From: a bacterium
Lineage (GTDB): Bacteria; Blakebacterota; Blakebacteria; Blakebacterales; Blakebacteraceae
Direction: 5' to 3'
Assembly: GCA_025774615.1 (NCBI GenBank)
Contig: JALGVQ010000013.1
Location: 1 to 24,438, forward strand
Length of the DNA stretch: 24,438 nt
The notes beneath the pieces are model-generated. The model searched no databases. It had not been told where the DNA came from and saw only the letters and a list, made by a program, of their open reading frames with translations. The position numbers were made by a program, and so were the translations under genes. Of this stretch, positions 7,307 through 20,053 are shown one piece after another (the stretch's first letter is position 1; each line of letters begins with the position of its first letter).

Positions 7307-8761
7307 TTATCCCTTGATGTTGCCGATCGGGCGCAGGCGAGCCACCTTGCGCACGATTCCGGCGCCGGTGACGACGTTCACGACATCGGCGACGTCCTTG
7401 TAGGCCTCACTCGCCTCTTCAGCCAGTACCCGGCGTGACGCGGCCCGGACATAGATACCCTTTTCGGCCAGTTCCCGGTCGATCTGGCGACCCTTGAGGT
7501 CCTTTTTAGCCTTTGCCCGGGATTTCACCCGCCCCGCCCCGTGGCAGGTGCTCCCCCAGCTTTCATCCATTGCCTGGTCGGTACCGACCAGTACGTAGGA
7601 ATACCGTCCCATATCACCGGGGATGAGAACCGGGTGCCCCGATTCCCTGTAGACTTCACCTATCTCGGGATGGCCGGCCGGGAAAGCTCGTGTGGCGCCT
7701 TTCCTGTGCACACAGACCGTTCGCTTCCTGCCTTCGAACAGGTGATCCTCGATCTTCGCGATATTGTGGCAGACGTCATAGACCACATCGAGACCGAGGT
7801 CATCCTCGGATCGGCCGAACACCTCGCTGAATACAGTGCGTGCCAGCCAGGTGATCATCTGGCGGTTTGCGAAGGCATAGTTGGCCGCAGCACGCATGGC
7901 CCCCAGATACTCTCGGCCCTCTTTCGAGGTGATCGGCGCGCAGACCAGCTGGGGATCGGGCAGGTCGAGCCCATGCTTCGAGAGCGTGCCACGCATCGAC
8001 TTCATATAGTCATCAGCTACCTGATGTCCGAGCCCCCGGCTTCCACAATGGATGAAGAAGGTGACCATCCCCACTTCGAGCCCGAACAGTGCAGCAGCTT
8101 CAGGATCGCAGATCTCATCCACGACCCCGACCTCGCCGAAGTGGTTGCCGCTGCCGAGGGTGCCCACCTGGTCGAGCCCACGCTCCATGGCACGGGGAGT
8201 GAGAGCATCGGGATCGGCATCGGGAAGGCAGCCGCCGCTCTCAAGCCGTTCGAGATCCGAGGCTCGTCCCCACCCCTGCTTGACCACCCACCCGGCTCCC
8301 TGTTGCAGGAGCGAGCGGAGCTGACCGTCTGAGACCTTTGCCCTCTTCCGGCGGGAACCAACACCAGTCGGGATCTCGGTGAAAAGCCGGTCGACGAGTT
8401 TGCGGATATGGGGTTTTACCTCATCCTCGCGGAGCCCGGTGCGCAGCAGACGCACCCCGCAATTGATGTCATACCCCACTCCACCGGGGCTCACAATTCC
8501 CTCATCGATATCGAAGGCAGCTACCCCGCCGATCGGGAACCCATACCCCCAGTGGATATCAGGCATGGCCATGCTCCTGCCCACCAATCCGGGGAGACAG
8601 GCCACGTTCGCCACCTGCTGGGGGCTGTTGTCGCCCTTCAGCAGCTCTTCGGTGGTGTGATCGGCATAGATGAGTCCCTCCGAACGCATCGCTCCCTCGC
8701 GGGGGATACGCAGGCGGTACTCATCTATCCTCTCAAGACGTACCGGTGACGGCTGCTTCAA
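7307..8761 (-). CDS. rtcB: RNA-splicing ligase RtcB (TTG start)
   Basis: The 484-residue product is RtcB, the Mn2+- and GTP-dependent ligase that joins RNA 2',3'-cyclic phosphate or 3'-phosphate ends to 5'-OH ends in tRNA splicing or RNA repair. Visible signatures are SPGGVGYDINCGVRL with metal ligands Asp98 and Cys101, GTLGSGNHFGEV, FIHCGSRGLGHQ, HNIAKIEDH, VHRKGATRAFPAGHP, and GSTCHGAGR, whose His407 corresponds to the guanylylated nucleophile. All key residues are present and the length is normal. The frame is open to a GTG at 8782. AAAGGAG lies inside that extension, 8 bases before an in-frame TTG at 8761, so translation most likely starts there. The gene follows trpB2 by 52 bases on the same strand and may be read through from the Trp-controlled promoter. 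No archease, RtcA or RtcR gene is adjacent. Confidence 0.95.
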   Translation of the reverse strand: MKQPSPVRLERIDEYRLRIPREGAMRSEGLIYADHTTEELLKGDNSPQQVANVACLPGLVGRSMAMPDIHWGYGFPIGGVAAFDIDEGIVSPGGVGYDINCGVRLLRTGLREDEVKPHIRKLVDRLFTEIPTGVGSRRKRAKVSDGQLRSLLQQGAGWVVKQGWGRASDLERLESGGCLPDADPDALTPRAMERGLDQVGTLGSGNHFGEVGVVDEICDPEAAALFGLEVGMVTFFIHCGSRGLGHQVADDYMKSMRGTLSKHGLDLPDPQLVCAPITSKEGREYLGAMRAAANYAFANRQMITWLARTVFSEVFGRSEDDLGLDVVYDVCHNIAKIEDHLFEGRKRTVCVHRKGATRAFPAGHPEIGEVYRESGHPVLIPGDMGRYSYVLVGTDQAMDESWGSTCHGAGRVKSRAKAKKDLKGRQIDRELAEKGIYVRAASRRVLAEEASEAYKDVADVVNVVTGAGIVRKVARLRPIGNIKG

Positions 8762-8769
8762 TGGCTTGG

Positions 8770-8776
8770 CTCCTTT
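8770..8776 (-). promoter_or_regulatory. Ribosome binding site deciding the rtcB TTG start
   Basis: AAAGGAG on the minus strand stands 8 bases upstream of TTG at 8759-8761 and downstream of the alternative GTG at 8780-8782. It therefore supports TTG over GTG as the start codon. Confidence 0.75.
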
Positions 8777-8782
8777 GACCAC

Positions 8783-8813: not shown

Positions 8814-10172
8814 CTATTCTAGCACGGGTACGCTCCTCATCGCTTCATCCACTTCCTCCTGGGAGAAATCGTGATCCACCATATCTCCGTTGAAGTAGCG
8901 TTCATAGGCACCCATGTCGAAGTGGCCGTGACCGCTGTAATTGAACGCGATCACCTTAGCTTCACCGCTCTCCCTGCAGCGCATCGCCTCATCAAATGCC
9001 GTTTTGATCGCATGGGCGGTCTCCGGGGCCGGCAGAAAACCTTCAGCCCGGGCGAAACTCACCGCCGCGTCGAACACCGGTGTCTGCGGGTAGGCGACCA
9101 CGTCGAGTTGTCCAAGCTCGTAGAGATGACACACAATCGGCGACATGCCGTGGTACCGGAGCCCGCCGGCATGGATCGGCGCCGGAACGAAATCATGACC
9201 GAGCGTGTACATCTTGATCAGGGGTGTCGTGCAGGCGGTATCCCCGAAATCGTACCGGTAGAGCCCCTTCGTCATGGTCGGGCAGGCTGTGGGTTCAACT
9301 GCCAGGATCTTCGTGTCGCGGCCGTCTGTGAGCTTGTCCCGGATGAAGGGCAACGCGAACCCGGCGAAGTTGGATCCACCCCCCACACAGCCGATCACGA
9401 CATCGGGGTACTCACCGGCCATCTCGAACTGCTTTATCGACTCTAGCCCGATCACCGTCTGATGAAGCATCACGTGGTTCAGCACACTGCCAAGAGAGTA
9501 CTTCGTGTCTTCCCGTTTCACAGCCTCCTCGACCGCTTCGCTGATGGCGATCCCGAGCGAACCCGGTGAGTCGGGGTCGGCATCGAGAATCCGCCGACCT
9601 GCCTCTGTCTCCCGACTGGGACTGGGCAGGCATTGCGCCCCCCATGTCTCCATCATGAGACGGCGGTACGGCTTCTGATCGTAGCTGATCCGTACCATGT
9701 AGACCTTGCACTCGATGTCGAAGAGGTTGCAGGCAAAGGATAGAGCGCTCCCCCACTGACCCGCCCCTGTCTCGGTGATGATGCGTTTCACACCCTCCTG
9801 TTTGTTGTAGTACGCCTGCGGGACAGCAGTATTCGGCTTATGACTGCCAGGGGGGCTCACCCCTTCCTGCTTGTAGTAGATCTTCGCGGGGGTATCGAGG
9901 GCCTTCTCCCACCGCCGTGCCCGAACAAGCGGGGTCGGACGCCAGAGACGGTAGACTCCCAGAACCTCCTCGGGAATATCGATATACCGTTCCTGGCTTA
10001 CCTCCTGGCCGATCAGCGCCATCGGGAAGAGTGGCGCCAGGTCATCCGGCCCGATCGGCTCTTTCGTGCCGGGATGGATCACCGGCGGGAGCGGGACCGG
10101 CAGGTCAGCCTGGATGTTGTACCACTGCTGCGGTATCTCACTCTCATTGAGGAATATCTTTGTGACTGCCAT
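8814..10172 (-). CDS. trpB2: TrpB2-type tryptophan synthase beta chain
   Basis: The 452-residue product is the TrpB2 form of the PLP-dependent tryptophan synthase beta subunit. It has the long N-terminal region typical of TrpB2 (WYNIQADLP, then [16 protein letters not shown]). The PLP lysine is K112 in [18 protein letters not shown] carries the catalytic Glu134, with Trp where TrpB1 has His. [11 protein letters not shown] is the phosphate-binding loop. TrpB2 enzymes usually act without TrpA, and characterised members use O-phospho-L-serine rather than serine to convert indole to tryptophan. The start ATG has an excellent site, AGGAAAGGAG, 8 bases upstream. The SbnI-like gene ends only 28 bases before the start, so the two share an mRNA. 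The pair lies behind a Trp-codon attenuator, which strongly supports a role in making tryptophan. No trpA or other trp gene is in the window. Confidence 0.95.
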
Positions 10173-10200
10173 CGTTACTGCTCCTTTCCTGCTTTGAGGT

Positions 10201-11049
10201 TCACTCGTCGAACATGAATGTCGGTTCCCGGTAGAAGCGGATCGATTTTTCCGCGACCCTCGAACGGATCGTCTCCTCCAGCCACACCTGTTTCTCCTCC
10301 AGTTTCAGCCCGGATCGCAGAGTATCGAGCCTCAGGTTGAATCGTAGCGCGCGCTTGGGCAGGAGCACGCGGGTGATACCGCTCGGAACGCGCATTCCAT
10401 GGGAGGTGATGGATCGCAGATCGTCTTTGGAATAGCCACGGAAGGATACAAGGGCCGTGAAATTCCGGTAGTTTCGGCGAAGGTGGTCGATGTTCGTGTA
10501 ACTTACGCGGTCGAAGTAGGCGAAACGGTGATATGTCCTGGTGAAGGCCTGCAGTTGCCTGACGCTCTCGATGAGATCGGAGGAACCTCTCAGCAGGAGA
10601 TGTTCTCCGTCGGCGAAGATGAGTCTGCAGAGGAGTGATCTGTCTTCCCGGTCGAGGTGGCTTCCCCGCCCGACCGTGACACCTCCGATGGCTTCCATCC
10701 CGGTCATGAGCATTTCACTGGTGAGGTATTCGACAGCGTGATGCCAGCAATCGATGGTGAGCGAACTGTCAGGCAGATTTACTATCTGAACCAATACATG
10801 AGATATATCCATCTTCTGTAATGATGTTATACGATTAGCACCATCGAGCACGATCAGTTTGTCAGCATCGTCCGCCCTTGCCACGACTGGTGGATTCTTC
10901 AATATGCCATCTGTACTGAAACGCTCGATGAGCTGGGCCACCCGCTCGGTATCAGGGTCCTCATGAAGTACCACATCATCCATCGAAACAATCTGCATCT
11001 CCGGCAATTCACCTATCTTCAGCTGTCCATTGTTCTCTTCCTGCGTCAC
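10201..11049 (-). CDS. SbnI/SerK-like ParB-fold protein, probable free-serine kinase
   Basis: The product is 282 residues. An ATG at 11109 is in frame, but it falls in the loop of the upstream terminator. GTG at 11047-11049 has AGAAGGGG 8 bases before it and is the likely start. The N-terminal ParB/sulfiredoxin-like domain has VVLHE (Glu30), KNPPVV and LDGANR (Asp69-Arg73). A second domain carries CWHHAV and VPSGITR (221-227). This two-domain pattern, including LHE, the DG..R box and the VP[A/S]G[V/I]TR motif, matches SbnI and archaeal SerK as I remember them. Those proteins phosphorylate free serine to O-phospho-L-serine; SbnI also binds DNA. The His usual in the DG..R box is Asn72 here. The gene sits directly before trpB2, whose family uses phosphoserine, and behind a Trp attenuator. 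The kinase role is inferred; a purely regulatory role is the main alternative. It is not a chromosome-partition ParB. Confidence 0.8.
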
Positions 11050-11082: not shown

Positions 11083-11123
11083 AAAAAAAGGCCCGCTGCA
11101 GTTTCTCATCTGCAGCGGGCCTT
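11083..11123 (-). terminator. Rho-independent terminator of the trp attenuator (3:4 hairpin)
   Basis: On the minus strand AAGGCCCGCTGCAG (11123-11110) pairs perfectly with CTGCAGCGGGCCTT (11101-11088) around the 8-base loop ATGAGAAA. Seven T residues follow (11089-11083), two of them part of the stem. It lies after the Trp-codon leader peptide and before the GTG start of the SbnI-like gene, which is the expected place for an attenuator terminator. A 14-bp G+C-rich stem with a U-tract is about as strong as such signals get. Confidence 0.93.
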
Positions 11124-11197
11124 GAAGGCGTCCGGTTTCAGGTCTGGATTACACGACAGTCCTCTCCACACGGCTCACACTGCTCTGTAGCGAGAGC
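11112..11197 (-). promoter_or_regulatory. Alternative 1:2 and 2:3 pairings of the trp attenuator
   Basis: In the minus-strand RNA GCUCU (11197-11193), which starts in the last base of the third Trp codon, can pair with AGAGC (11186-11182) around a 6-base loop: the 1:2 hairpin. GCAGUG (11183-11178) plus GCC (11174-11172) can instead pair with CGCUGC (11117-11112) plus GGC (11121-11119), the 5' arm of the terminator: the 2:3 antiterminator. A ribosome stalled at the Trp codons would cover the first arm and favour antitermination. The pairings were drawn by hand, without energy calculation. Confidence 0.6.
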
Positions 11198-11232
11198 CAC
11201 CACCAGGTGCGTGTGCGAGTGTATGCGTTCAT
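11149..11232 (-). CDS. trp operon leader peptide with three tandem Trp codons
   Basis: This is a 27-residue open frame beginning MNAYTRTRTWWW, with TGG-TGG-TGG at 11205-11197 (codons 10-12), and ending at TAA 11149-11151. AGAGGA (11240-11235) gives it a ribosome site, if a slightly close one. The stop is 25 bases before the terminator stem. Three adjacent codons for the rarest amino acid, in a short translated frame right before a strong terminator and a tryptophan synthase operon, are the signature of ribosome-mediated transcription attenuation. When charged tRNA-Trp is scarce the ribosome stalls at these codons and the downstream genes are transcribed. When it is plentiful the terminator forms. 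The peptide is probably made only as a sensor. It is too short for ordinary gene callers. Confidence 0.92.
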   Translation of the reverse strand: MNAYTRTRTWWWLSLQSSVSRVERTVV

Positions 11233-13302: not shown

Positions 13303-16300
13303 TCAGAGTCTTACACGCTCACCAGTCGAGAGAGCCCATATCTCCGAGGAAACGGGACGGCCGGAAACAGCGGCAAGCATCAGACGATAAGCCGCGAGCT
13401 GTCCCTCGTACCGGTACTTCAGATCACCGTTCGATATGATGCCGGTCTTGTAATCCACCACGAGCAGTTCGCCTGTCTCGTTCTCCAGGATGAGATCAGC
13501 TGTGCCGGTAAGCACCGAGATATCGCTGCCCGCGTATTCCGCGATCTCCCCGGGAATATCCGCTATCGCCATCGGCCACTCGGTGGCGGTGGGAGTCCAG
13601 CCTTCTGATAGAGCCGTTTCAAGCATGGTCATCCCGTTTGCAGCCAGATTCCGACACTCCTGACCAAACTCTTCAGGATCGGATGGTTGAACAACGATCG
13701 CGCATACAGTCTCTGGTTCCATCCCTGATGAGACAATCAACTCCATGGCCTCGTGGACGCGGGTGCCCCGCAATCTTGCGTACCACCCACTCTTCGTGAG
13801 CGGGATTTTATCGTCAGACTCCCGGTCAGAATCGACCATCCCATGCAAGACACCGAGACCGGACGCCCGTGCGGCCCTGGATGCGCGGGCTCGCTCCACC
13901 ACCTGCCGCCATTCCTGTCTGAACGCCGCTCTTCTTCTGTCCGCGTCCTCGATCTCATCATCTGAGGGTGGGGTGAGGTCGTACGGCAACCGGTGGTGAT
14001 CTACCTCCACTCTCTCCGGCTCCTGGGGTGAATCCCAGACCACCAGGTCTTCCATGCCGGGCACATCACCTGCAGCCAGCCTTCTAAGGCCGTTTTCCAG
14101 CGGGGCGAGGAACCCCTTCTCAGACTGTTCTTCCGATGATCTTGAACAGACCACCACATGTTCACGCGCCCGTGTGAACGCGACATAAAGCATGCGGCCT
14201 GCTTCCCGCTCCTGCTCGAGTTCCTCGGCTTCCTTCCGTTCCGGCCACCCGACCGGTTCCAGGCCTGCCCCTTTCACCGCCACACTGCCCCGTTCCCGAT
14301 CCGGGATCGCCGTATCCTTGAAAGAGGGTGTATAGCTGCGATCGAGGAGCGCGACCACCGGGAACTCAAGCCCCTTGGCCGAGTGGATCGTCATGAGCGT
14401 CACCGCACTGGCACCCTCCCCCATGAGTCCCGATTCCTCCTCGACCGCGGCCTGCCGCTGTTCCTCGATGTACCTCACCAGACCTGGCAGAGTACCTGCT
14501 TCAGCACTGCCGGAGCCGGCCAGGGTCGATGCCGCATCCTCATAGGCAGCCGCCAGATCGAGGAGCTTCAGCAGGTTCGCCATCCGCCGTTCACCATCGG
14601 GTTTGAGCGCATGCAGGGGAATCGAGCGGGTCCGGTCATAGAGCGAACGCAGTACCGCAGAGGGCGCCATGAAGAACGCCTCACGATGCAGATCTGCCAG
14701 GATCCGGCGCGCGACAAGGAGAGGGGCGTCTTTATCGGGATCAAGGAACCCCGCCCCCTCACCGGGCAGTTCCTCCAGATAACTGAATGAACTGCAGCTT
14801 GCTGCCAGCCGCACCAGACTCTCGTCGGAGACACCGAAGAACGGTGAGCGGAGCGCAGCAATGATCGCCACCCCATTGGAGGGATCCGCCAGGGCCCGGA
14901 GTACCGGGATAGTCTGGATGATCTCGAGCCGGTGAAAGAACTCCCGCCCCTTTGCCAGTCGGAATGGGATCCCGTACCGTTCCAGCTCCCGCTCGAATAC
15001 CCGCACTCCGGTATAGGTCCTGACCAGGATGGCTATATCCCCGTAGTCGAACGGCCGGACTTCGCCTGAGTCGCGGTCGATGATCGGGAACGCTTCTGAA
15101 CGCTGCTGCTCGATCCAGCCGGCAAGAGCGCGGGCTTCAGCGACACGTATGGCCCCGGTGCCGGGAGAACGCTCCTCACCGTCATAGTCCATCTTTCCCA
15201 GCACCGGATCGATGTCGAGCAGGCTTACTGAGGCTTTGGTGTTCTCACTACCGCGATAGGCTGTCAGCTCCTGGTAATCATCGGCAGGGAGCAGTTCACC
15301 AAACAGTTTGTTGGCAACGGCTACCAATCCTGGGGTGCTGCGGAAGTTGACGGTGAGCCGGGCTTCGATCCCTGACCGCAACAGCTGTTCTCGCGCCCTG
15401 CGGAACACCTCGAGATCGGCCCGGCGGAACCGGTAGATGCTCTGGTTGGCATCACCCACCAGGAAGAGTCGACCCGCCTGCGGGATCGCATCTTCCACCG
15501 ATTCAGCCCGCACTCCGGGAGCCTCGGTCAACCGCATCACTATCCCTGCCTGGATCGGGTCAGTATCCTGGAATTCGTCTATCAGGACATGATCGAACTG
15601 TCCCTTGATATCCTCGGTAACCTGCTGATCCGTTTCCAGCAGTCGCCCGGTCGCAAGCAGGAGATCGTCGAAGTCGAGGGCTCCCATCTCCTCTTTGCGG
15701 CGGCGGTAGATCGCTCCGGTATCTTCCGCTGCAACTACCACTACCCGCAGCATGGCGCTCCGATAACCGGCGATCGCGTCATCCCGTCGCTGTGAGAGCG
15801 CCTTCCAGGCAGGCTTCAATGCTGTGAATGCTGCCCTGGTCTCTTCATCGGCATCCCATTTCCCCTTCGCGCCAGCCCTTTTATAGATCTTCAATCGTCC
15901 GAGCGTGGCCGCACGATCATGGATATCAGCAGAGGGGCTCCTCAGGTATTCTCCACGGGAGAGCGCGTCTCGAGCCTGAGTAAGAAGCGAATCCCCCTCC
16001 GTCACCACTGCGCTGAATTTCACGACCTCGCGGGCAGTTGCCAGGAGATCTTCCACGACCTCATCGATGTTCTCATCACCATCACCTGGTAATTCGGTTT
16101 CCAGATCCGGGAACCTCAACACGGCCTTTACCAGGTCGCGCAGGCGACTCAGTCCGGCACCAGCAAGAAGTGGTCCCTCCATCGCGCTATCTGGTGATGA
16201 CCGCAGCCGTTCTATCTCTTCGGTGACGATGGAGTCGAGCAGAAGGTCGGATGCCAGCTGGTCGAGAACCACGAATCCGGGCACGATACCGGCTTCGATC

Positions 16301-16662
16301 GGACGGGCAGAGAGAAGCGAACGGCAGAACCCATGGATTGTCGTCAGAGGTGAGATGTCCACGACCGCAAGAGCCGCGCCCCGGAACCGCGCGACCTCAT
16401 TCGAGTGCGGTACCGGCGGCTGTGAAAGCTCACCCCGCACCCGTTCTCTCAGTTCAGCGGCTGCCTTGTCGGTGAAGGTGATCGCCACGATCCGCTCCAA
16501 CGGGACTCCTGAGTCCACCAGACCGGTGACCCGATCCACCAGGACCCGTGTCTTGCCTGATCCCGCGCCTGCGCCCACCGCAAAACTCGACGCTCGATCT
16601 TCGACCAGGCGGGTCCGTTCCTGCTGATCCACGGGCGGAGGCAGCTCCCTGATGCCGCTCAC
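13303..16662 (-). CDS. addA: AddA-type UvrD-family helicase/nuclease
   Basis: This 1119-residue subunit belongs to the AddAB helicase-nuclease that processes double-strand DNA breaks for RecA loading. SF1A helicase motifs appear in order: GAGAGSGKT (30-38, Walker A), ITFTDKAAAELRER (Ia), LIDEFQDTDP (II), LFLVGDANQSIYRFRRAD (III), LTVNFRSTPG (IV), TIHSAKGLEFP (V) and MLYVAFTRAREH (VI). The C-terminus has a PD-(D/E)XK nuclease: GTRVHEAMELI, GTADLILENETGELLVVDYKTG, then a Gln-Tyr-type end (YEGQLAAYRL). Both activities look intact. The GTG start overlaps the stop of addB by 4 bases (GTGA), implying translational coupling. Length is close to AddA of other bacteria. The absence of recC and recD and the Fe-S type of its partner separate it from RecBCD. 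Confidence 0.92.
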   Translation of the reverse strand: MSGIRELPPPVDQQERTRLVEDRASSFAVGAGAGSGKTRVLVDRVTGLVDSGVPLERIVAITFTDKAAAELRERVRGELSQPPVPHSNEVARFRGAALAVVDISPLTTIHGFCRSLLSARPIEAGIVPGFVVLDQLASDLLLDSIVTEEIERLRSSPDSAMEGPLLAGAGLSRLRDLVKAVLRFPDLETELPGDGDENIDEVVEDLLATAREVVKFSAVVTEGDSLLTQARDALSRGEYLRSPSADIHDRAATLGRLKIYKRAGAKGKWDADEETRAAFTALKPAWKALSQRRDDAIAGYRSAMLRVVVVAAEDTGAIYRRRKEEMGALDFDDLLLATGRLLETDQQVTEDIKGQFDHVLIDEFQDTDPIQAGIVMRLTEAPGVRAESVEDAIPQAGRLFLVGDANQSIYRFRRADLEVFRRAREQLLRSGIEARLTVNFRSTPGLVAVANKLFGELLPADDYQELTAYRGSENTKASVSLLDIDPVLGKMDYDGEERSPGTGAIRVAEARALAGWIEQQRSEAFPIIDRDSGEVRPFDYGDIAILVRTYTGVRVFERELERYGIPFRLAKGREFFHRLEIIQTIPVLRALADPSNGVAIIAALRSPFFGVSDESLVRLAASCSSFSYLEELPGEGAGFLDPDKDAPLLVARRILADLHREAFFMAPSAVLRSLYDRTRSIPLHALKPDGERRMANLLKLLDLAAAYEDAASTLAGSGSAEAGTLPGLVRYIEEQRQAAVEEESGLMGEGASAVTLMTIHSAKGLEFPVVALLDRSYTPSFKDTAIPDRERGSVAVKGAGLEPVGWPERKEAEELEQEREAGRMLYVAFTRAREHVVVCSRSSEEQSEKGFLAPLENGLRRLAAGDVPGMEDLVVWDSPQEPERVEVDHHRLPYDLTPPSDDEIEDADRRRAAFRQEWRQVVERARASRAARASGLGVLHGMVDSDRESDDKIPLTKSGWYARLRGTRVHEAMELIVSSGMEPETVCAIVVQPSDPEEFGQECRNLAANGMTMLETALSEGWTPTATEWPMAIADIPGEIAEYAGSDISVLTGTADLILENETGELLVVDYKTGIISNGDLKYRYEGQLAAYRLMLAAVSGRPVSSEIWALSTGERVRL

Positions 16663-19600
16663 TCTCGATCACCTCCCGCGACATGGTCGATCGAACGGAG
16701 TGTGTTCAACGGCTTCAGGAGATCACTCTTCCGGTGACGATTTGATTCCTCGAGCCTCCAGGCCCTGCAGATGGCAGGTGTCGGGCAACCGGTACAGAGA
16801 CCGGTCTGATTATCCGTCCGATCGTCGTGCGGCAACCGTACAAAGACACCCTGCTCGATGGAATGAAGCAGGTCCGCAAGGAGTCGATCGAGGTCGACCT
16901 GAGCCTCCGCTATCGCCTCAACCGGCCAGGCGATCGCATTCGGTGGACTCTCAGGACGGTCGGGGCGCAGATGCAGAAAGAGGCCGCCTGCGATCGTGCC
17001 CGCATCCTTCAACTCTGCTGCCGCGGCCAGCAGATAGAGGTACATCTGGAGGTTGAGTCCTCCTGCAAGACTCCCCTCCTGCCCTGGAGCGCCCCGTCCG
17101 GTCTTGTAGTCGAGTATCCGGATCCTTCCCGCGCCATCCCTGTCCACCCTGTCCCACCGACCCCTGAGATGGACAATGCGTTCCCCGACCCTGATCTCTG
17201 AGGAGAACGCCTCCTCCAGAGCCAGGACCTGCCATCCCTCTGATGCCCCTGAAACGAGATCGGCCTCCTGCTTCCGATCCGAATCCGCTTCCCATCTGAG
17301 CCACCCGAGGACTCTTCCCATCGCCAGCCGGCTGTCGATCCGTTCAAAAAGCGGCGCCGGCGTACCGCGGAGCCGGTAGGCGTTTTGTACATGCTTCTCG
17401 ACAAGCTCCGTGAGCCCTCTCTGCAGATCATCGTCCTTCGAGGATTCAGGCGGCCATAGGCCATCTGCCGATAGGTGGCGGAGATGATCGCAGAAAACAC
17501 CGTGCAGAACCTGTCCCATCTCAAGAGCGTTCAGAAGTCCTTCTATCTCTACTGTCTCCTCCGGCAGCCCCAGCACACTCCTGACGAACACCTTCCACGG
17601 ACAGGTTGCATATGACTCGAGCAGGGACGAAGAAACCGTACCGTTTTCCTGCAGACCGAGAAGCTGCAGTGCCAGCCCGATTGCAGGCTCCGACCGGAGG
17701 AACCCCGACCATGGTCCCGCTTCGCCCCTCCAACGCGATAGCTCCGCGTTCCAGCCCTGCCGGAATGTGGGACTGCCCCACAGTGCGTGCAGGGCCGTAC
17801 GGTCTTCTCCATCGAGCGCTTCACCCACCGCTGCCATGTCCCGGTCGAGATCACCCATCAGAGGGCCACCGGCTACGGGCCTGGTGTCTCCGAGTCGCCG
17901 GGTTCCCTTCTCCGAGATCGTTTCCAGATCACCCTGGGTGAGGTCGCTTCTTACAAGACGCTTCATCAACTCGAGAATGTGAGGGCTGGCCCTCCGTTCC
18001 CGGCCCGATTCATCAAGCCTCGGATAGAGGAGCACTATATGCCGGGCAGTCTCGAGCATGAGCCGGAAGAGGAGCCGCTCTTCATCGACCCGCCTGTGTG
18101 AGGTGGAGAGGAGCCATTCCTCCTTTCCAATGAGTTCTTTCCGCTCAGAATCGATCAGCAGGGGATCCTGCGCCGGCCTGCGGGGCCATGCCCCTTCTGC
18201 CATCCCGAGCACCACCGAGAGATCGTGCCGGGTACCGCGGAGTTCCATGAGATTGTGAAGAACCAGTGCCCCTCCATCGAGAGTCGTTCGCTCCACTTCC
18301 CTGATCGCCTGCACGACTTCGGTTACCCCCACCTCACCCTCCAGCACCAGAAGGTCGCGGAGCTTCTCAAGTCCCTCATCGACTTCCCCGAACCATTCCG
18401 GGGAGGCCAGTGACGCAACGATATCCCGGAGCACATCGACCCACACCCGCCAGGAGGCAACCTCCGGCAGATCGTCAAGAAGATCCTCAACGGTCCCGAT
18501 CCATCCGGAAGCCATCTGGAGCGAGGTTACTCTTGCGCCGCGGCGGCGCAATCGCACCTGGTCCCTGAGGGTGACCTCCTCCGTTTCTGGTTCGGCACGC
18601 TCTCCTTCCCGGATGAAGGATTCCTCCTCCCGGAGCGCCGCCTCCCGGATCCGTGTGGACCACGAATGCAGATCTCCCCCCGCCGAAACACTCCTGAGGA
18701 GAGTGCTGCCCAGCAGCGGGATCGGCTCACCTCCTCCGGCACAGATCACGCAGTTTAGAAGCCTGGTCAGAGCCTCAGGGGAAAGGTCTTCGATACGTGC
18801 GCTCAGCAGGGTGAGCAGGAGATCCCGGACCCTGGCAGGGCATACCGTGTCGGGTGTTGTGTCGCTGAGGAATCCGTTCGATCGGGCCTGTTGCAGGAAC
18901 TGATTGCGATAAAGATCGGGGTCAGCGGTCAGGATGCGTGTCTGCTCATTCCGCTTTCCACCGAGCCAGGCCGCCGTCAGAAGCCTCAGCGCCGTGTCCA
19001 CTTCCCGACCGGTTCCCGGAGCCGAGACAACCGTTATGGTCTCCGCTTCCTCACCCTCGCCCTCACTCTCGCCGAGCAGGGCCCATAGATCTTCAAGAGA
19101 GGTGGGCCGGTGAACAGGTCCCTCCCCCACGTCAATGTTCTCCACCCGCCTGGCGCGATCACGCCAATGGTTCAGCAGCCCTCCCGCATACGCTTCCGTC
19201 TCCGGATAGACCGGCGCGAAGATCCGCAGAGTGGTCGCTTCGATGAGTGACTTGAGCAGTTCCCACTGACCACCGGTCAGATCGTAGAAACCGTAGACGC
19301 ATAATTCCGGCAGTGGAGGATCTGAATCAGGCGCGGGAACCGCTGCCGCGGCACGCACCAGCCCTTCGGGATCGAAGGCATCGACCATTTCAAGCGCCTC
19401 GAGCCATGCCGCATAGAGCCCGGCGACCATTTCGAGCCGTTGCCGGCTCTTTCCTCCTGACCGCCCTGCCAGTTCGCTGACCGCCTCTGCTCCGATACCG
19501 GCCTCCCGGAGGTCGTTCATGGTCTTTCTGGCGGCATCGGCGAACGCCGTCGTCCCGAGGGATACGATACCCAGATCCCTGCCCAGATCGGGCAGACGCT

Positions 19601-19898
19601 GCTGAAGGACCCTCTTCAGCAGGTGGTCCCGGGCCATCTCTCCCATCCGCGGAGCGGGAACTCCGCCATACGAGGTGAGCAGTCGGATCGCGAGATCGGG
19701 GAAACGGAGAAACCGCGTACCACTTGAACCGCCATTGACCAGGACCGCGCGGTGCTGAAGATGACGGGCGAGGCCGGCATGAGGAACCAGCACCCACCGT
19801 TCGGCGAATGGACTTTCAGGGGAGGTCTCGTGCAGGTGGGCAAGGAGTGCTTCCTCGATCGATGCCCAGGCACCTTCAGTGAGCAATTCAAGACTCAT
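16659..19898 (-). CDS. addB: AddB-type exonuclease subunit with Fe-S nuclease domain
   Basis: The product, 1079 residues from ATG 19898, is the partner subunit of AddA. The frame continues upstream to 20033, but that stretch (Arg/His-rich) looks non-coding and its starts lack ribosome sites. The chosen ATG is also not strongly supported by a ribosome site; it fits the domain start (LLTEGAWASIEEALLAHL). The N-terminal half is a helicase-like fold (VPHAGLARHLQHR, LCVYGFYDLT, VVLGMAEGAWPRRP). The C-terminal nuclease has SSSLLESYATCPWKVF, RIRILDYKTGRG and LCTGCPTPAIC. The single upstream Cys plus C-x2-C-x5-C form the four-cysteine 4Fe-4S staple of AddB. No canonical P-loop is seen at the N-terminus, so the ATPase motor may be inactive. 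It runs directly into addA. Confidence 0.9.
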   Translation of the reverse strand: MSLELLTEGAWASIEEALLAHLHETSPESPFAERWVLVPHAGLARHLQHRAVLVNGGSSGTRFLRFPDLAIRLLTSYGGVPAPRMGEMARDHLLKRVLQQRLPDLGRDLGIVSLGTTAFADAARKTMNDLREAGIGAEAVSELAGRSGGKSRQRLEMVAGLYAAWLEALEMVDAFDPEGLVRAAAAVPAPDSDPPLPELCVYGFYDLTGGQWELLKSLIEATTLRIFAPVYPETEAYAGGLLNHWRDRARRVENIDVGEGPVHRPTSLEDLWALLGESEGEGEEAETITVVSAPGTGREVDTALRLLTAAWLGGKRNEQTRILTADPDLYRNQFLQQARSNGFLSDTTPDTVCPARVRDLLLTLLSARIEDLSPEALTRLLNCVICAGGGEPIPLLGSTLLRSVSAGGDLHSWSTRIREAALREEESFIREGERAEPETEEVTLRDQVRLRRRGARVTSLQMASGWIGTVEDLLDDLPEVASWRVWVDVLRDIVASLASPEWFGEVDEGLEKLRDLLVLEGEVGVTEVVQAIREVERTTLDGGALVLHNLMELRGTRHDLSVVLGMAEGAWPRRPAQDPLLIDSERKELIGKEEWLLSTSHRRVDEERLLFRLMLETARHIVLLYPRLDESGRERRASPHILELMKRLVRSDLTQGDLETISEKGTRRLGDTRPVAGGPLMGDLDRDMAAVGEALDGEDRTALHALWGSPTFRQGWNAELSRWRGEAGPWSGFLRSEPAIGLALQLLGLQENGTVSSSLLESYATCPWKVFVRSVLGLPEETVEIEGLLNALEMGQVLHGVFCDHLRHLSADGLWPPESSKDDDLQRGLTELVEKHVQNAYRLRGTPAPLFERIDSRLAMGRVLGWLRWEADSDRKQEADLVSGASEGWQVLALEEAFSSEIRVGERIVHLRGRWDRVDRDGAGRIRILDYKTGRGAPGQEGSLAGGLNLQMYLYLLAAAAELKDAGTIAGGLFLHLRPDRPESPPNAIAWPVEAIAEAQVDLDRLLADLLHSIEQGVFVRLPHDDRTDNQTGLCTGCPTPAICRAWRLEESNRHRKSDLLKPLNTLRSIDHVAGGDRE

Positions 19899-20053
19899 GT
19901 ACTCAATAGAGAGCCCTACTGTGACATGCCGCCGGTCATGAATACGGGAACCCATGTCAGACAGGGTTAATTTAAAAATCCGTATTGGCAGCAGGGGATG
20001 CACCTGCAAGAATCGGCAGTGAGGCCTGTTCACCCATAACCTGGAACAGAGCG

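Follow-up and report, generated by a model that had tools for sequence, protein, structure and literature searches.

Gene order and features of the locus

The DNA analysed is a stretch of 24,438 nucleotides from a member of the Blakebacterota, referred to below as the window. On its minus strand the order is leader, terminator, SerK/SbnI-like gene and TrpB2 gene. The leader peptide ORF (11149..11232, -), identified by direct reading and by script, encodes MNAYTRTRTWWWLSLQSSVSRVERTVV up to its stop and carries three tandem Trp codons at 11197-11205. Just 3′ of these codons lies a candidate antiterminator strand, GCAGTGTGAGCC (11172..11183, -), taken from the fold of the truncated leader. The intrinsic terminator that forms part of the putative attenuator (11083..11123, -) consists of a 14-bp hairpin followed by seven T, with a predicted energy of -29.6 kcal/mol for the terminator alone. 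The first gene (10201..11049, -; 282 amino acids, GTG start) encodes a SerK/SbnI-like predicted free-serine kinase. The second (8814..10172, -; 452 amino acids) encodes TrpB2, a tryptophan synthase beta chain of the O-phospho-L-serine (OPS) type. Both genes are on the minus strand with a gap of 28 bases. The first-pass annotation had claimed an adjacent, co-directional pair under one Trp attenuator; its gene coordinates are right, and the leader with its WWW run and the terminator are present just outside the span of 8814-11049 that it gave. The presence of the kinase homologue, TrpB2 and the attenuator in the window is thus confirmed. An RtcB RNA ligase homologue (7307..8782, -) lies 31 bases downstream of TrpB2, and the sister genome (L007) likewise has it after TrpB2. 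Since RtcB queries gave no match at the other TrpB2-linked loci, it is treated as a neighbour, apart from the kinase-TrpB2 pair. It may also be noted that the window has two overlapping large ORFs at 13303-16662 and 16659-20033 (-), which by eye resemble a helicase-nuclease pair of the AddA/AddB type.

The two encoded enzymes

By single sequence the match of the first protein to known kinases is weak, while by family profile and fold it is clear. The protein scores 56 bits (E 3.4e-15) with the SbnI model NF033589 and 32 bits with the SerK model NF053625, far below the NCBIfam cut-offs of 350 and 380. Therefore, on sequence grounds, it belongs to a distinct subfamily outside the SbnI and archaeal SerK equivalogs. 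With a profile built from 34 relatives, the match to SbnI (PDB 5uje) has E 1.7e-34 and that to Thermococcus SerK (5x0b) E 6e-12. The AlphaFold2 model (pLDDT 90.9) gives Z 24.1 across 247 residues with SbnI (5ujd) and Z 21.9 across 220 residues with SerK (5x0b), so that the predicted fold match spans nearly the entire SbnI/SerK length at a sequence identity to the characterised kinases of 14-18%. The next fold families, canonical ParB/Noc and sulfiredoxin, reach Z at most 9.2 over 70-95 residues; an identity as a chromosome-partition ParB was rejected on the same measure, with Z no higher than 9.2 over about 75 residues. Glu30 of the window protein aligns with E30 of SerK and E20 of SbnI, and Asp69 with D58 of SbnI; both residues are invariant in 36/36 relatives. 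E30 of SerK is the residue mutated (E30A/E30Q) in PDB entries 5x0e, 5x0g, 5x0j and 5x0k, and the kinase activity of SbnI is reported to require E20 and D58 (PMC9641203, citing Verstraete 2018). The profile and fold values and the intact catalytic residues support the SbnI/SerK-like kinase identity proposed earlier, and the protein is predicted from sequence and model to phosphorylate free L-serine. No relative of the kinase was found in the viral contigs searched, and the plasmids searched gave only distant matches (20-30% identity) in Staphylococcus, Macrococcus and Bacillus relatives.

As the scores lie so far below the equivalog cut-offs, the substrate could have shifted. If the kinase took threonine, a modified serine or some other serine analogue, and the pair made a tryptophan derivative, this would agree with the identity of only 14-18% to characterised kinases. 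Of the readings considered we give this one the least credence: the SerK of Thermococcus kodakarensis (Tk-SerK) accepts free serine specifically and does not act on threonine or homoserine (PMC5120207), the leader would sense tryptophan itself, and nine of the hosts lack TrpB1. A second alternative is that the protein is the regulator of the operon, binding DNA or a ligand as ParB-type proteins do, while TrpB2 takes phosphoserine or serine from ordinary metabolism. SbnI is described as a heme-responsive transcriptional regulator besides being a kinase, EdeB, with its SbnI-like N-terminus, binds the promoter of its own cluster (PMC9641203), and the scores of the window protein fall short of the kinase equivalog cut-offs. 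We nevertheless regard a regulator as very unlikely, because E30 and D69 are invariant and the fold match runs near the full SbnI/SerK length with no HTH domain detected, the Pfam search of the window protein having given no match. Further points against it come from the attenuator, the partner enzymes and the host genomes described below.

The second protein passes both curated cut-offs for TrpB2, scoring 751 bits with NCBIfam NF009057 (cut-off 366) and 668 bits with TIGR01415 (cut-off 519), and it matches PDB entries 6hul (446 bits) and 4qys (401 bits). In an alignment of proteins from these genomes, Arg339 is present in 22/22 TrpB2 rows as against Asp in 17/17 TrpB1 rows, and the motif ETGAGQWG of TrpB2 stands against ETGAGQHG of TrpB1 (W140 in 25/25, H in 15/15), these counts including some duplicate rows of one gene. 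Arg at position 339 is taken here as the residue of OPS specificity. With the cut-offs passed and Arg339 present, the identity given by the first-pass annotation stands. Dependence on OPS has been described for TrpB2 enzymes (Busch 2014, as cited in PMC11917138), and the enzyme of this operon is predicted from its sequence to use OPS and indole. Besides its kinase-linked TrpB2, the Eisenbacteria chromosome encodes another (L081, G296:C1:1439238-1440287), with no kinase found in the surrounding 4-kb stretch.

Recurrence of the pair and its attenuator

When species genomes were scanned for the kinase family, 34 loci were obtained. Counting that of the window and its sister (G001), there are 12 genomes, carrying about nine phylum-level labels, in which TrpB2 directly follows the kinase gene; the pairing, whose failure to recur had been set beforehand as a refutation, does recur. 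Among the scan hits, the kinase gene is followed directly by TrpB2 in the same orientation in RSWS12 (L012), Calditrichota (L013), Gemmatimonadota (L014, L015), a genome labelled Acidimicrobiia (L017), Eisenbacteria (L018), KSB1 (L020), Zixibacteria (L021), Neomarinimicrobiota (L022) and Krumholzibacteriia (L031). In one more case (L016) the contig stops inside the kinase gene; its TrpB2 is assumed, and it is counted as linked wherever 13 loci are given. The class and phylum of the window comprise four genomes, and the statistics are drawn from other phyla. In the kinase tree the TrpB2-linked kinases form a supported group that also holds the unlinked L019, L023 and L035, and L017 groups with Gemmatimonadota; this could reflect either a mistaken label or a move of the operon. 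Among Gemmatimonadota only 2/395 genomes carry the kinase, for which reason we call the module patchy, and its spread between lineages is possible. The Zixibacteria kinase at L019:1699-2568 is 44% identical to that of the window and has no TrpB2 alongside; its genome gave no TrpB2-level match and has TrpA, TrpB1 and indole-glycerol phosphate synthase (IGPS). In Chloroflexota, proteins of an uncharacterised family of about 120-180 amino acids are often encoded right after a SerK-like gene or a short way downstream of it (nine loci: L025:6829-7185, L026:6828-7247, L028:2469-2867 and six further loci).

For the attenuator, a locus was scored as positive if the sequence upstream of the kinase gene held a short ORF with tandem Trp codons and, past the end of this ORF, an intrinsic terminator. 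This arrangement was found at 10/13 TrpB2-linked loci, or 10/12 testable ones (at L013 a contig end cuts the locus), at 0/25 kinase loci without TrpB2, and in 1/3,900 dinucleotide shuffles. The remaining two linked loci, L016 and L021, have their full upstream sequence and no recognisable Trp leader. Fisher's test of 10/12 against 0/25 gives about 2e-7, a figure that is only a guide as the loci are related. This recurrence excludes chance for the leader and terminator. The sister genome keeps the WWW run in its leader (MIKGNRTRTWWWRSQQSSGRRVARTVM up to the stop), the terminator, the kinase and TrpB2, its kinase gene being split across two contigs. The antiterminator was compared in the same loci. 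In the window, GCAGTGTGAGCC is predicted to pair with the 5′ arm of the terminator, GGCCCGCTGC, by a 6-bp core with a bulged extension; this pairing is weaker than in the relatives and does not rise above shuffles (288/500). Six relatives, and L020 as a seventh, show a pairing of 8-10 bp between the terminator 5′ arm and a strand that immediately follows the Trp codons. The paired sequences differ between relatives yet match each other (GCAGTGGG/CCCGCTGC, GCGGCGGGA/TCCCGCTGC, CCGTAGTGGG/CCCACTATGG), that is, they show compensating changes. A gathering-threshold search of the window with Rfam matched no family. The Trp leader, terminator and antiterminator at linked loci tie the kinase to tryptophan supply, and on sequence evidence the operon would be controlled by attenuation. 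Since a Trp attenuator would already supply operon control, there is less need for the kinase homologue to be a regulator.

Elsewhere the kinase family occurs beside other PLP enzymes. It lies among CysO-, CysM- and JAB-type (Mec+-like) genes at L009:1178-3655, L033:5679-8212 and L045:3073-5577, beside CysM/JAB and CysK-CBS at L008:56-3719, and beside CysK-CBS at L032, L041 and L044. The gene content of L009, L033, L045 and L008 suggests a CysO-CysM cysteine pathway fed by a serine kinase. With SbnA, CysM/CysK and TrpB2 as partners, the family recurs with PLP enzyme types able to use OPS, which fits a shared substrate and fits less well a shared regulator. These neighbourhoods, together with the role of Thermococcus SerK in cysteine synthesis and serine assimilation (PMC5120207), would also agree with a genuine operon whose kinase mainly serves such other OPS users, TrpB2 being a minor consumer. 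We hold this to be highly improbable, as the linked loci are under apparent tryptophan control and not cysteine control in ten genomes, and queries for CysM, CysK, CysO and JAB matched none of the TrpB2-linked loci.

Host gene content, the proposed pathway and known systems

Gene content was compared in 13 genomes, namely the 12 linked ones and that of L016. Genes are called absent on the basis of family searches, the controls of which were found in 14/14 genomes, and most of the genomes are incomplete MAGs (that of the window is 82% complete). Neither TrpA nor TrpB1 was found in 9/13 genomes, in keeping with the earlier claim of TrpA-independence. Eight of these nine (window, sister, L017, L018, L020, L021, L022 and L031) also lack IGPS, and the L013 genome has IGPS only. 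The genome of L018, recorded as one 2.69-Mb chromosome contig, is among those without TrpA, TrpB1 and IGPS. The other 4/13 genomes (L012, L014, L015, L016) have all three. TrpA is also present in 6/6 searched kinase-bearing genomes without a linked TrpB2. The first-pass annotation had described the pair as a bypass; a bypass beside a complete pathway applies only to the 4/13, and in most hosts the pair looks instead like the sole, indole-dependent Trp route. With a threshold of E 1e-60, which 14/14 controls reached, SerA gave no match in 7/9 genomes without TrpA and TrpB1; G291 has SerA, and G298 has a sub-cut-off match only. These seven linked genomes without strong SerA again argue against a regulator beside a TrpB2 supplied by ordinary metabolism. 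SerC was found in 0/21 genomes, which was at first striking. Other aminotransferases can replace SerC, the control family serC_1 occurs in only 107/290 genomes at large and the kinase-bearing G174 has SerC, so this absence was set aside as weak evidence.

We consider it very likely that the operon is a tryptophan salvage unit, in which serine is converted to OPS by the SerK-like enzyme and OPS with indole to tryptophan by TrpB2, under Trp attenuation. What is read from the sequence is gene order, recurrence, attenuator parts, intact catalytic residues and missing genes; we infer the enzyme activities, the hand-over of OPS, the indole source, the phosphate donor and the function of the attenuator. 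In the proposed scheme, the SerK-like enzyme with its ParB-type kinase fold would phosphorylate free L-serine to OPS, from which the PLP-dependent TrpB2 would eliminate phosphate to give an aminoacrylate; this would react with indole on TrpB2, without TrpA, to L-tryptophan. When charged tRNA-Trp is scarce, the ribosome would stall on the tandem Trp codons of the leader, the GCAGYGGG-type strand just downstream would pair with the terminator 5′ arm, and both genes would be transcribed; when Trp is plentiful, the terminator would form. The serine-phosphoserine-Trp route put forward in the first-pass annotation is thus well supported by recurrence, attenuator and catalytic residues. Since TrpA, TrpB1 and IGPS are missing in several hosts, these would need indole from outside the known pathway, by uptake or from another source. 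The simplest reading is that hosts without TrpA and TrpB1 make tryptophan only from indole and serine via the pair. The wider proposal seems reasonably probable, namely that the attenuated pair is the sole Trp route in several uncultured phyla lacking TrpA, TrpB1 and IGPS, and that SerK-type kinases act as a plug-in for OPS supply to SbnA, CysM/CysK and TrpB2. As a tryptophan synthase, TrpB2 is known to depend on OPS and to work without TrpA; its role and the source of its OPS are unsettled. If the salvage reading is true, both would be settled here: TrpB2 would be a tryptophan-supply enzyme, with OPS made on demand from serine, and kinase and TrpB2 would form a compact cassette. It would also predict indole-dependent tryptophan synthesis in several uncultured phyla, with indole a shared nutrient in those communities.

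The first-pass annotation regarded the pairing and its regulation as undescribed, and in the literature searched we found no paper joining a serine kinase and TrpB2; an earlier description elsewhere is possible. Neither tryptophan nor TrpB comes up in a survey of the ParB-CTPase fold from 2025 (PMC12704722), and the T. kodakarensis SerK paper reported no clear bacterial homologues (PMC5120207). The nearest known system is SbnI-SbnA of staphyloferrin B synthesis in Staphylococcus aureus, in which the PLP enzyme SbnA receives its OPS from SbnI (PMC12414870). In both cases a ParB-fold free-serine kinase, here a predicted one, is encoded with a PLP enzyme using its OPS; the fold match to SbnI is near full-length and both SbnI catalytic residues are conserved. 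Unlike the present pair, SbnA makes ACEGA for a siderophore, whereas here the partner is TrpB2 under tryptophan attenuation, and the identity is about 18%. In T. kodakarensis, SerK supplies OPS for cysteine synthesis (PMC5120207), likewise taking free serine through OPS to the product of a PLP beta-replacement (SerK-CysK) with the same kinase fold and Glu30, but the product is cysteine and serK there lies outside any operon. A TrpB2 with a part in indole salvage is also described for this archaeon (Hiyama 2014). The TrpB2 of the window resembles the OPS-dependent TrpB2 (Busch 2014) in scoring above the curated cut-offs and in its TrpB2-specific Arg; in the searched literature no dedicated OPS-making enzyme is linked to known TrpB2, whereas here TrpB2 and a predicted enzyme of this type are coupled physically and, as predicted, regulatorily. 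The attenuator shares with the classical trp attenuators of E. coli, Corynebacterium and Streptomyces (PMC1262725) the short tandem-Trp leader and the intrinsic terminator before the first gene, with a candidate for the competing antiterminator; it has no Rfam match in the window and would control a serine-kinase/TrpB2 pair instead of trpEDCBA. Judged by sequence, the arrangement is of a kind already known from SbnI-SbnA and SerK-CysK, to which TrpB2 would be added as a further partner.
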